Of a DNA stretch of 64,000 bases, positions 21,745 through 63,192 are shown piece after piece (the stretch's first letter is position 1; each line of letters begins with the position of its first letter). The position numbers were made by a program, and so were the translations under genes. Below the pieces are notes generated by a model. The model made no database searches and was not told where the DNA came from. It worked only from the letters and a program-made list of their open reading frames with translations. This DNA comes from Clostridiales bacterium (GTDB lineage Bacteria; Bacillota; Clostridia; Oscillospirales; Acutalibacteraceae), in assembly GCA_012839185.1 (NCBI GenBank), contig DUNU01000015.1, positions 62,001 to 126,000 on the forward strand, given 5' to 3'.

Positions 21745-21848
21745 TCACCTTATTAAAGAGCAGTGGAGGGAACGGCCCTATGAAACTGCAGCAACCTACA
21801 TTTGCAAGGTGCCAAATCCGACGGTTTAAGCCGAGAGATAAGGGTATC
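21745..21848 (+). ncRNA. SAM-I (S-box) riboswitch
   Basis: The conserved core is plain: GCAGTGGAGGGAACGGCCC with ATGAAACTGCAGCAACC, then AAGGTGCCAAATCC and GAGAGATAAGG. P1 pairs ACCTTAT at the 5' end with ATAAGGGT at the 3' end. It precedes metK, so high SAM should shut off SAM synthetase expression through the terminator at 21849-21878. Confidence 0.96.
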
Positions 21849-34059: not shown

Positions 34060-34089
34060 AATGGCAGACATTTTGTCTGTCATTTTTTG
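34060..34089 (+). terminator. Terminator of htrA
   Basis: AATGGCAGACA (34060-34070) pairs with TGTCTGTCATT (34074-34084) with one G-U, followed by TTTTTG. Confidence 0.85.
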
Positions 34090-34098
34090 AAAAAATAC

Positions 34099-34127
34099 TT
34101 GACAAATATGATGAATAGTGTTATAAT
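34099..34127 (+). promoter_or_regulatory. Consensus promoter for leader-symporter transcript
   Basis: TTGACA (34099-34104) and TATAAT (34122-34127), spacer 17; predicted start near 34134, about 25 bases before the leader ORF. Confidence 0.88.
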
Positions 34128-34148
34128 TTGTGCAATATAAAAGAAGGG

Positions 34149-34291
34149 GGCAGTCGTAATGGCAATTAAAAGTAATCTTTTGAGCTCAAATTACTCTTAT
34201 TATTATATTATCGGCTGCCAATCTGAGATTTAGCAAGTTTCAGAAAATTAAGGCGGCCTTGTTTGCGTTATACGAGGTCGTCTGTATTTTT
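34149..34291 (+). promoter_or_regulatory. Attenuator with mutually exclusive hairpins
   Basis: Four segments: 1, GGCAGTCG (34149-34156); 2, CGGCTGCC (34212-34219); 3, AGGCGGCCTTG (34251-34261); 4, CGAGGTCGTCT (34273-34283). Segment 1 pairs with 2 (8 bp, one G-U). Segment 2 pairs with 3 (GGCTGCC/GGCGGCC, 7 bp, one G-U). Segment 3 pairs with 4 (11 bp, three G-U) and is followed by GTATTTTTTT. Pairing 2:3 excludes the 3:4 terminator. Tyr codons end five bases before segment 2. Confidence 0.75.
34159..34233 (+). CDS. Tyrosine-rich 24-residue leader peptide
   Basis: ATG 34159-34161, stop TAG 34231-34233. AAGGGGG (34144-34150) is a strong ribosome site. Residues 9-18 read SSNYSYYYII, so four of five codons from 12 to 16 are Tyr (TAC, TAT, TAT, TAT). 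It sits between a consensus promoter and a terminator hairpin with a competing antiterminator (see 34149-34291), the classic layout of a ribosome-mediated transcription attenuator. Peptide function is regulatory by inference; no family is known to me. Confidence 0.75.
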   Translation: MAIKSNLLSSNYSYYYIIGCQSEI

Positions 34292-34293
34292 TT
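34251..34293 (+). terminator. Attenuator terminator before the symporter
   Basis: Hairpin of segments 3 and 4 described above, 11-base loop and a T-tract from 34287. Confidence 0.82.
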
Positions 34294-34308
34294 ATTTAGG
34301 AGAAAGCT

Positions 34309-35865
34309 ATGTTAATTAAAGTAATGTTTCTGGTAGTGTTTTTCGGTGTAATGTTGGGTGTCGGATTGTATTCTCGTAAAAAAGCAACCGATGTGGACGG
34401 TTTTGTTATGGGTGGTCGTTCTATCGGTCCTTGGATGACGGCATTTTCATACGGAACAACATATTTTTCCGCTGTAATTTTTGTAGGTTACGCAGGACAA
34501 TTTGGTTGGCGTTTTGGTATTGCATCAACGTGGATTGGTATTGGTAACGCTTTAATCGGCTCACTTCTTGCTTGGGTAATATTAGGTCGTCGTACCCGCG
34601 TTATGACACAGCATTTAGGTTCAGCCACAATGCCGCAGTTTTTTGAAAAGAGATTTAATTCAAAAGCAATGAAGCTTATTTCTTCCATTATTATTTTCGT
34701 ATTCTTAATTCCTTATACCGCATCGTTATATAATGGTTTAAGTCGTCTTTTTGGTATGGCTTTTGACATTGACTACACAATTTGTATAATCGCTGTTGCA
34801 TTATTTACTGCTGTCTATGTTGTCGCAGGCGGATATTTGGCAGCTTCGGTAAATGACTTTATACAGGGTATAGTAATGCTGGTTGGTATAGTTATGATTA
34901 TTGTATCCATCCTTAAAGTAAACGGTGGTTTTCTCGGCTCACTTGATGCTCTTGCTCATGTTTCAGATACTTCTGTATCAACCTCTCCCGGCGTATTTGC
35001 TTCCTTCTTCGGACCGGATCCGACATCTTTGTTCGCTGTTGTAATTCTTACTTCTTTAGGTACTTGGGGACTTCCTCAGATGGTGCAAAAATTTTATGCA
35101 ATCAAGAGTGAGGATGCCATCAATAAGGGTACAGTCATTTCCACTCTATTTGCTATCATAATAGCCGGCGGTTGCTACTTTTTAGGCGGTTTCGGCAGAA
35201 TATTTAATGTTGATGTTGCAAATGAAGGCTTTGATGCAATTATTCCGACAATGCTTTCAGGTCTGTCCGATGTAATTTTTGCAATGGCGGTTGTATTGGT
35301 GCTTTCCGCCTCGATGTCAACGCTTGCATCTTTGGTATTAACCTCAAGCTCTACTTTGACTCTTGATTTTATTGTTCCTCTGTTTTTAAAGAATAAAAAA
35401 GATGATAAGAAGAACATGCTCATTATCAGAATTTTTATCGCAGTATTCATTGTTATTTCCGCTGTTATCGCTATTAATCAGCATAAGAATGCAAACTCAT
35501 TTATTGCACAGCTTATGGGACTTTCTTGGGGTGCACTTGCCGGTGCGTTTTTAGCTCCTTTCCTTTACAGTTTATATTGGAAACGTGTTACAAAGCCTGC
35601 ATGTATTGCATCATTTATCAGCGGTACCGGAATAATGCTTTCCAATATGTTCTTTAAGGATGCATTCCCGGAAATTCTCAAAAGTCCTATTAATTGCGGT
35701 GCATTTGCAATGGTTGTTGGGCTTATCATCGTTCCTGTTGTGAGTTTAATAACAAAAGCTCCGAAAGAAGAACATCTGGAGAAAACATTTGCGTGCTATG
35801 AAGAGACGGTTACTGTTCCTATAACCGAAGCTCTTAATGTTGTTAAGAAAGCAAAAAAGAAATAA
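34309..35865 (+). CDS. Sodium:solute symporter (SSS family), predicted tyrosine or aromatic amino acid related
   Basis: 518 residues, about thirteen membrane helices of the SSS/LeuT-fold family. Helix-1 region GLYSRKKATDVDGFVMGGRSIGPWMTAFSYGTTYFSA is the typical SSS start; VVAGGYLAASVNDFIQG and GTWGLPQMVQKFYAIKS are also family landmarks. It takes up a solute with Na+. From sequence alone the substrate is open, but the upstream Tyr-rich leader suggests regulation by tyrosine supply, hence tyrosine or a related compound. AGGAG precedes the ATG. No terminator is obvious after the stop. Confidence 0.92.
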   Translation: MLIKVMFLVVFFGVMLGVGLYSRKKATDVDGFVMGGRSIGPWMTAFSYGTTYFSAVIFVGYAGQFGWRFGIASTWIGIGNALIGSLLAWVILGRRTRVMTQHLGSATMPQFFEKRFNSKAMKLISSIIIFVFLIPYTASLYNGLSRLFGMAFDIDYTICIIAVALFTAVYVVAGGYLAASVNDFIQGIVMLVGIVMIIVSILKVNGGFLGSLDALAHVSDTSVSTSPGVFASFFGPDPTSLFAVVILTSLGTWGLPQMVQKFYAIKSEDAINKGTVISTLFAIIIAGGCYFLGGFGRIFNVDVANEGFDAIIPTMLSGLSDVIFAMAVVLVLSASMSTLASLVLTSSSTLTLDFIVPLFLKNKKDDKKNMLIIRIFIAVFIVISAVIAINQHKNANSFIAQLMGLSWGALAGAFLAPFLYSLYWKRVTKPACIASFISGTGIMLSNMFFKDAFPEILKSPINCGAFAMVVGLIIVPVVSLITKAPKEEHLEKTFACYEETVTVPITEALNVVKKAKKK

Positions 35866-63101: not shown

Positions 63102-63192
63102 ATCACCATATAGAGTGCGTGAGGGACAAGCCCGTTGACCGCACAGCAACCTGCCGAAAGGTAAGGTGCTAATGCTTGATCGATGGGGTGAT
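63102..63192 (+). ncRNA. SAM-I-type (S-box or SAM-I/IV variant) riboswitch
   Basis: Core matches the SAM-I family: GTGCG-TGAGGGA-CAA-GCCC-GTTGAC-CGCAC forms P2 with the kink, then AGCAACCT, a GAAA-capped P3, and AAGGTGCTAA. P1 pairs ATCACCAT (63102-63109) with ATGGGGTGAT (63183-63192). P4 seems short or missing, which may place it in the SAM-I/IV variant. Followed by a terminator, as for an off-switch. Confidence 0.85.

Follow-up and report, generated by a model that had tools for sequence, protein, structure and literature searches.

The locus considered here raises the question of why the gene of a sodium:solute symporter should be separated from its promoter by a short reading frame rich in tyrosine codons, and what this arrangement tells about the compound that the symporter imports. 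It lies in a stretch of 64,000 nucleotides from a bacterium of the Clostridia, which is referred to as a whole as the window. A first-pass annotation had read the region as a tyrosine-codon attenuator. The parts of the locus are as follows:

34099-34127, forward strand: promoter, with the -35 box TTGACA at 34099-34104, a 17-nt spacer, and the -10 box TATAAT at 34122-34127 (direct reading)
34144-34150, forward strand: Shine-Dalgarno sequence of the leader, AAGGGGG (direct reading)
34149-34156, forward strand: segment 1, GGCAGTCG, between the Shine-Dalgarno sequence and the start codon; partner of segment 2, with covariation across seven loci
34159-34233, forward strand: leader peptide reading frame, MAIKSNLLSSNYSYYYIIGCQSEI, 24 codons, with ATG at 34159 and TAG at 34231-34233
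34192-34206, forward strand: control codons 12-16, TAC TCT TAT TAT TAT, four of them for Tyr (codons 12, 14, 15, and 16)
34212-34219, forward strand: segment 2, CGGCTGCC, partner of segment 1 or segment 3
34222-34244, forward strand: extra hairpin of 10 bp between segments 2 and 3 (34222-34231 with 34235-34244), the conservation of which is not clear
34251-34262, forward strand: segment 3, AGGCGGCCTTGT, of which 34252-34258 pair with segment 2 and the entire length with segment 4
34272-34293, forward strand: segment 4, ACGAGGTCGTCT (34272-34283), followed by GTA and the T7 tract at 34287-34293; predicted intrinsic terminator together with segment 3
34309-35865, forward strand: sodium:solute symporter (SSF, PF00474), the gene under the proposed control

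In the window, pairing 1:2 joins 34149-34156 with 34212-34219, pairing 2:3 joins 34213-34219 with 34252-34258, and pairing 3:4 joins 34251-34262 with 34272-34283, the T7 tract coming next. The promoter, the Shine-Dalgarno sequence, the 24-codon reading frame, the four Tyr codons, and the three pairings were thus recovered base for base as first annotated, while the hairpin formed by 34222-34231 and 34235-34244 was missing from that list. An intrinsic terminator, as expected of an attenuator, is present upstream of the symporter structural gene, and its hairpin has an energy of -16.8 kcal/mol. The fold of 34132-34299 amounts to -49.6 kcal/mol, compared to -31.9 ± 3.35 kcal/mol for shuffled sequences (z = -5.3), and the minimum free energy structure contains 1:2, 3:4, and one additional 10-bp hairpin.

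Relatives were fetched with the symporter as query, and the leader set consists of the window and six further loci (L033, L034, L037, L038, L039, and L045), six of the closest relatives, whose symporters are 70-74% identical to that of the window. All seven loci have an equally placed, translatable short reading frame of 17-24 codons with 3-6 Tyr codons in the run, its start close behind a TTGAC(A)-TA(N3)T promoter pair at comparable distance, and a purine-rich Shine-Dalgarno sequence at the same position. The mutually exclusive pairings 1:2, 2:3, and 3:4 are likewise found at every one of them, with a single mismatch in the 2:3 pairing of L038. Pairings 1:2 and 2:3 were tested by permuting the segments among loci, while pair counts in the alignment were applied to 3:4 only. 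For 1:2, the pairing of each segment with its own partner ranks first among the 5,040 permutations, the observed one included (i.e., it beats all 5,039 swaps); for 2:3 it ranks in the top 21 of 5,040. Segments with shuffled letters never reached the observed totals of pairing energy. For 3:4, 95.7% of the cells are paired across loci, compared to 27-66% once the segments are slid. The letters of the segments vary between loci with the pairing kept, and it is the coding run that is conserved. Architecture, conservation, covariation, regulon, and genome context are thus direct readings of the compared sequences, and, at this level, the match of the leader features to the attenuator plan is beyond chance. 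The attenuator reading also held among the homologues, where seven members of the clade retain the Tyr runs and all three exclusive pairings with compensatory changes.

The symporter tree places the seven leader-bearing proteins in a single clade of ten rows with a support of 99. Inside this clade, 7 of the 10 symporters are preceded by a short reading frame with YYY, compared to 1 of the 129 upstream regions outside it, and the sole outside case (L158) carries a tyrosine T-box instead. No match to the covariance model R1 was found at 75 loci with more distant symporters, and the leader is therefore confined to one clade. When the window's own genome was searched by DNA similarity with the leader as query, only the leader itself matched, because the sequence diverges while the structure is kept; R1 was thus required.

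Three clade members lack the leader in their upstream regions, namely L035, L032, and L036. The latter two are Spirochaetota symporter sequences nested in the Clostridia clade, for which horizontal transfer is probable (or else contamination of the metagenome-assembled genomes). L035 is a near twin of L033 in which the promoter region is kept and the leader and terminator are gone between promoter and gene, the control region having been deleted naturally some 100 nt ahead of the symporter. As a separate observation, L033, L034, and L035 share an element of about CGCTTTTAA(G/T)CGCTAAAGTATTGACA immediately ahead of the -35 box of the symporter promoter, and this element is possibly the operator of a DNA-binding regulator.

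The geometry was evaluated with ribosome footprints of the standard E. coli values, the host here being one of the Clostridia. At all seven loci, a ribosome stalled with the first Tyr codon in its A site would have its front edge 5-10 nt before segment 2, and one at the stop codon would hide 5-8 nt of segment 2, with segment 3 beginning 4-16 nt further. In the window, a ribosome stalled on either of the last two Tyr codons would partly cover segment 2, while codons 12 and 14 would leave it free. Pairing 2:3 is weaker than 3:4 at every locus, and it must therefore form first.

When charged tRNA-Tyr is ample, the leader ribosome would thus reach the TAG codon and cover segment 2, so that 3:4 would form and transcription would terminate before the symporter. 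When it is scarce, the ribosome would halt a few bases before segment 2, on the first Tyr codons, and prevent 1:2 from re-forming, which would leave segment 2 to pair with segment 3 once the latter is made. With 2:3 formed, no terminator would arise and the symporter would be transcribed. An untranslated leader, finally, would form 1:2 in the ribosome-binding region and, further downstream, the terminator.

With the start codon as reference, segment 1 falls at -12 to 0 at 7/7 loci, which is not the classical trp-type placement. Because it lies between the Shine-Dalgarno sequence and the start codon, the ribosome-binding region of the leader itself is folded up in 1:2. The first-pass annotation had invoked a following, initiating ribosome to hide segment 1. 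The spacing indicates that at six of the seven loci a ribosome arrested on the first Tyr codon is itself near segment 1 and could block 1:2 without a second ribosome, which makes the proposed help unneeded there; in the window, where the leader is longer, the blocking may be aided by a following ribosome. Taken together, the region 34134-34308 very probably works as a ribosome-mediated transcription attenuator, with charged tRNA-Tyr as the signal that is sensed and the symporter gene as the target, controlled through stalling and termination. The annotated function is thereby upheld by the conserved Tyr runs, the pairings, the ribosome spacing, and the Tyr T-boxes found on homologous genes.

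These T-boxes provide a second view of the tyrosine input. In at least six related genomes a T-box with a UAC (Tyr) specifier precedes a homologous symporter, the loci that score above the RF00230 cut-off being L041, L078, L142, L148, L153, and L158. The specifier contexts read GAA-TAC-A or GAA-TAC-C, and GAAA-TAC-A in L158, in a frame calibrated on the T-boxes of leuA (GAA-CTC-A) and trpB (GAA-TGG-A). The specifiers of L003 and L150 (GAATTACC) are ambiguous between UAC and UUA and were left out of the firm count, as was the T-box of L080, which lies on the opposite strand. The UAC T-boxes support a response to tRNA-Tyr independently of the leader. Since leader peptide and T-box are unrelated RNAs, tRNA-Tyr is reported twice to the same kind of gene, and the presence of two such predicted sensors on one importer suggests that the cargo is tyrosine or a precursor of tyrosine. 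The window's own genome has 8 T-box matches, so that leader peptides coexist with T-boxes.

With R1, another leader was found in this genome (G000:C8:348425-348562, minus strand). It encodes the peptide MKYFDSFYYYYFNKDCPFFLEFGIL, has its own 1:2, 2:3, and 3:4 pairings, and heads the complete shikimate-Phe-Tyr operon of aroF, pheA, aroB, aroC, aroE-aroK, aroQ, aroA, and tyrA. A Tyr/Phe leader on the aromatic operon of the same genome supports the tyrosine specificity of the symporter leader. Covariance models R1 and R2 were run against 394 genomes from the order and 391 from the class. In the order, Tyr/Phe leaders precede aroF, pheA, and a PLP aminotransferase gene, and in the class they precede aroF, pheA, and ABC importers (TrpX-type binding protein, ABC permease). 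Leaders with 5-6 Tyr codons precede the TrpX-type binding protein in L240 and L242 and the ABC permease in L241, pointing to leader-controlled import of aromatic amino acids in other Clostridia. The runs of the symporter leaders contain Tyr only; in those of the biosynthetic leaders, Tyr and Phe codons occur together. The window device would thus be one of a family of Tyr/Phe leader attenuators in Clostridia, another member of which governs aromatic biosynthesis in the same genome. The weak matches to R1 and R2 were set aside (L194, L196-L199, L202, L212, L213, L216-L220, L222, L232-L235, and L238), as these are plain terminators or A/T-rich stretches with no convincing aromatic leader.

Turning to the cargo, the symporter matches SSF PF00474 over its full length (residues 32-439) with 193 bits, above the gathering threshold. 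Homologues of 64-68% identity lie in operons of the order ligase-symporter-IorA-IorB-PaaK, in which IorA is above the TIGR03336 cut-off. The ligase or IorA of such operons carries Tyr T-boxes (L043, L105, and L135, the last in G060) or Phe T-boxes (L111, L146, L163, and the IorA of L105), which suggests salvage of 4-hydroxyphenylacetate or phenylacetate. In three Tyr-leader genomes, the CoA ligase carries a Tyr T-box (L181, L182, and L183, that of L182 by sequence inspection alone), and importer and ligase would then be read in some cells by two unrelated tRNA-Tyr sensors. The imported arylacetate would be ligated to CoA, reductively carboxylated to the arylpyruvate by IorAB, and transaminated to the aromatic amino acid. 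An AMP-forming ligase beside IOR has been argued to indicate biosynthesis (PMC13285125), and the production of phenylalanine from phenylacetate by rumen bacteria has been known since the 1960s (PMC7356843 and references there). It is somewhat probable, on the basis of this gene context, that the symporter imports an arylacetate, namely 4-hydroxyphenylacetate or phenylacetate, and that the pathway runs in the direction of synthesis.

The genome of the window has a PaaK-IorA-IorB-ACT operon. The operon-type CoA ligase was not found in this genome, and the region upstream of its PaaK-IorAB operon has no Tyr leader; neither do the upstream regions of IorA and PaaK inspected in the Tyr-leader genomes. 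The link to arylacetate is therefore indirect in the window's genome. It was also noted that the ACT-domain-like protein of this operon (L180:6823-7254) might sense an aromatic amino acid.

We have also considered that the same attenuator serves a symporter that imports tyrosine or another aromatic amino acid, as the PutP-type members import proline. Its highest NCBIfam similarity is indeed to PutP/SSS, but below the cut-offs, and for PutP itself far below (TIGR02121, 218.5 bits against the 515.5 required). The window's symporter stands alone in a genome without the operon-type ligase, and the full shikimate-tyrosine pathway of this genome means that tyrosine uptake would also make sense. In addition, the similar leaders on TrpX-type importers of other Clostridia demonstrate that leader control of amino-acid import exists. 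However, the ligase-IorAB-PaaK operons of the close homologues process aryl acids rather than amino acids, and the ligase is under a Tyr T-box in three Tyr-leader genomes. Tyrosine as the cargo is therefore possible but doubtful. The annotation had proposed tyrosine or an aromatic compound; the aromatic link is strengthened by the T-boxes and operons, while tyrosine itself need not be the cargo, an arylacetate being at least as well supported.

A further alternative, in which the ligase-symporter-IorAB-PaaK genes run toward fermentation and an excreted aryl acid is what the symporter handles, would agree with the role of IOR in oxidizing arylpyruvates during peptide and amino-acid fermentation (PMC13285125). 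Genes induced by uncharged tRNA-Tyr or tRNA-Phe should, however, supply Tyr and Phe and not consume them, the ligases are AMP-forming, which favors acyl-CoA synthesis (PMC13285125), and the operon of the window's genome includes the ACT-domain-like gene. Such direction is thus improbable. That a constitutive promoter, an ordinary terminator, and a chance Tyr-rich frame occur together with no regulation at all is hardly credible: terminators and short reading frames are common and the weak model matches do include plain terminators, but the leader, stems, and ribosome spacing are kept at seven loci with compensatory changes, and these comparative data, like the parallel Tyr T-boxes, already contradict it. 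It is just as hard to accept that a metabolite-binding riboswitch or T-box has been mistaken for an attenuator, both T-boxes and SAM riboswitches being present in the genome, since 34080-34330 has no Rfam match up to E = 1, and hence none to the T-box RF00230 with its Stem I, specifier loop, and antiterminator with TGGNACCGCG, and since the conservation resides in the coding run with the segments varying and the pairing kept.

The attenuator with a probable arylacetate importer as its target can then be compared to known systems. Like trpL, hisL, and pheL of Proteobacteria, the leader has a short reading frame with a run of cognate codons, three exclusive pairings, and an intrinsic terminator. 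It differs from them in its Tyr codons, its host among the Clostridia, and its symporter target, as well as in segment 1, which lies between the Shine-Dalgarno sequence and the start codon whereas theirs is inside the coding part, and in segment 2, which is inside the leader reading frame directly after the control codons. The Rfam covariance models of the Trp, His, Phe, Leu, and Thr leaders gave no match to the Tyr/Phe leaders.

Firmicutes are generally described as sensing aminoacyl-tRNA by T-boxes, and the first-pass annotation had accordingly called a Tyr peptide attenuator on an SSS transporter unusual. T-boxes are indeed found on the related symporters, and the device belongs to a wider leader family in Clostridia. 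The Tyr T-boxes of Firmicutes (RF00230; tyrS, NhaC-type transporters) share with it the input, uncharged tRNA-Tyr, the output, antitermination, and in related genomes the symporter target; they bind the tRNA directly with no leader peptide needed, whereas the window device uses one. Tyr T-boxes have been listed on NhaC and NSS transporters and on no SSS transporter (PMC2494555).

A search of the open-access literature yielded no account of leader-peptide attenuators for Tyr in Firmicutes. The nearest description is that of the uORFC-13-1 motif upstream of aroF in Acholeplasma, a predicted leader-frame attenuator with Phe codons and a terminator (PMC8632094). This motif occurs in other bacteria, with Phe only, 24 representatives, and aroF as the only target, whereas the Clostridia leaders carry Tyr or Tyr and Phe runs and reach pheA, the aminotransferase, and transporters. 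The window would thus hold a Tyr-specific leader attenuator with segment 1 in the leader's ribosome-binding region, part of a Clostridia family that is apparently undescribed so far.

For the proposed role of the symporter there is a counterpart in PaaL of Pseudomonas putida, an SSS-family protein. PaaL is a phenylacetate permease and resembles the proposed symporter in providing uptake for CoA ligation (PMC3224230), while its system differs in serving aerobic catabolism under sigma54 control.

We judge it an even call whether Tyr and Tyr/Phe leaders form a hitherto undescribed family across the Clostridia that replaces or complements the aromatic T-boxes, with one branch recruited to an arylacetate importer for salvage upon starvation. 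If this is true, tyrosine starvation would switch on the salvage of 4-hydroxyphenylacetate or phenylacetate via CoA ligation and reductive carboxylation. In the attenuator reading as such, a tiny Tyr-rich peptide gene of a gut- or rumen-type Clostridia bacterium very probably acts as a gauge that switches on an importer at low tyrosine. The regulation points to genes for the phenylacetate-to-phenylalanine route of the rumen (PMC7356843). A symporter lineage with the leader, next to relatives with Tyr T-boxes, makes the exchange of tRNA sensors directly comparable. The regulation also offers a way toward the function of a large symporter subfamily of gut and rumen bacteria that has no name, and the analysis yields a covariance model and a target list for an RNA family absent from Rfam.

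Other regulated loci were seen in passing. Two proteins of about 765 aa with an XRE-like N-terminus (L122, in contig C12 of the window's genome, and L125, in C8; L224:1491-3779 and L223:12845-15142), in which cupin and AMP-ligase parts are suspected by eye, lie behind T-boxes with specifiers that look like Val (GTA) and Ile (ATC). These are perhaps involved in the salvage of branched-chain acids into Val and Ile, in parallel to the aromatic case. VorB-like 2-oxoacid oxidoreductase genes (L225, in C6 of the same genome, and L119) lie behind a T-box reading as Ile. The window itself contains two SAM riboswitches (RF00162), at 21747-21844 and 63103-63189.
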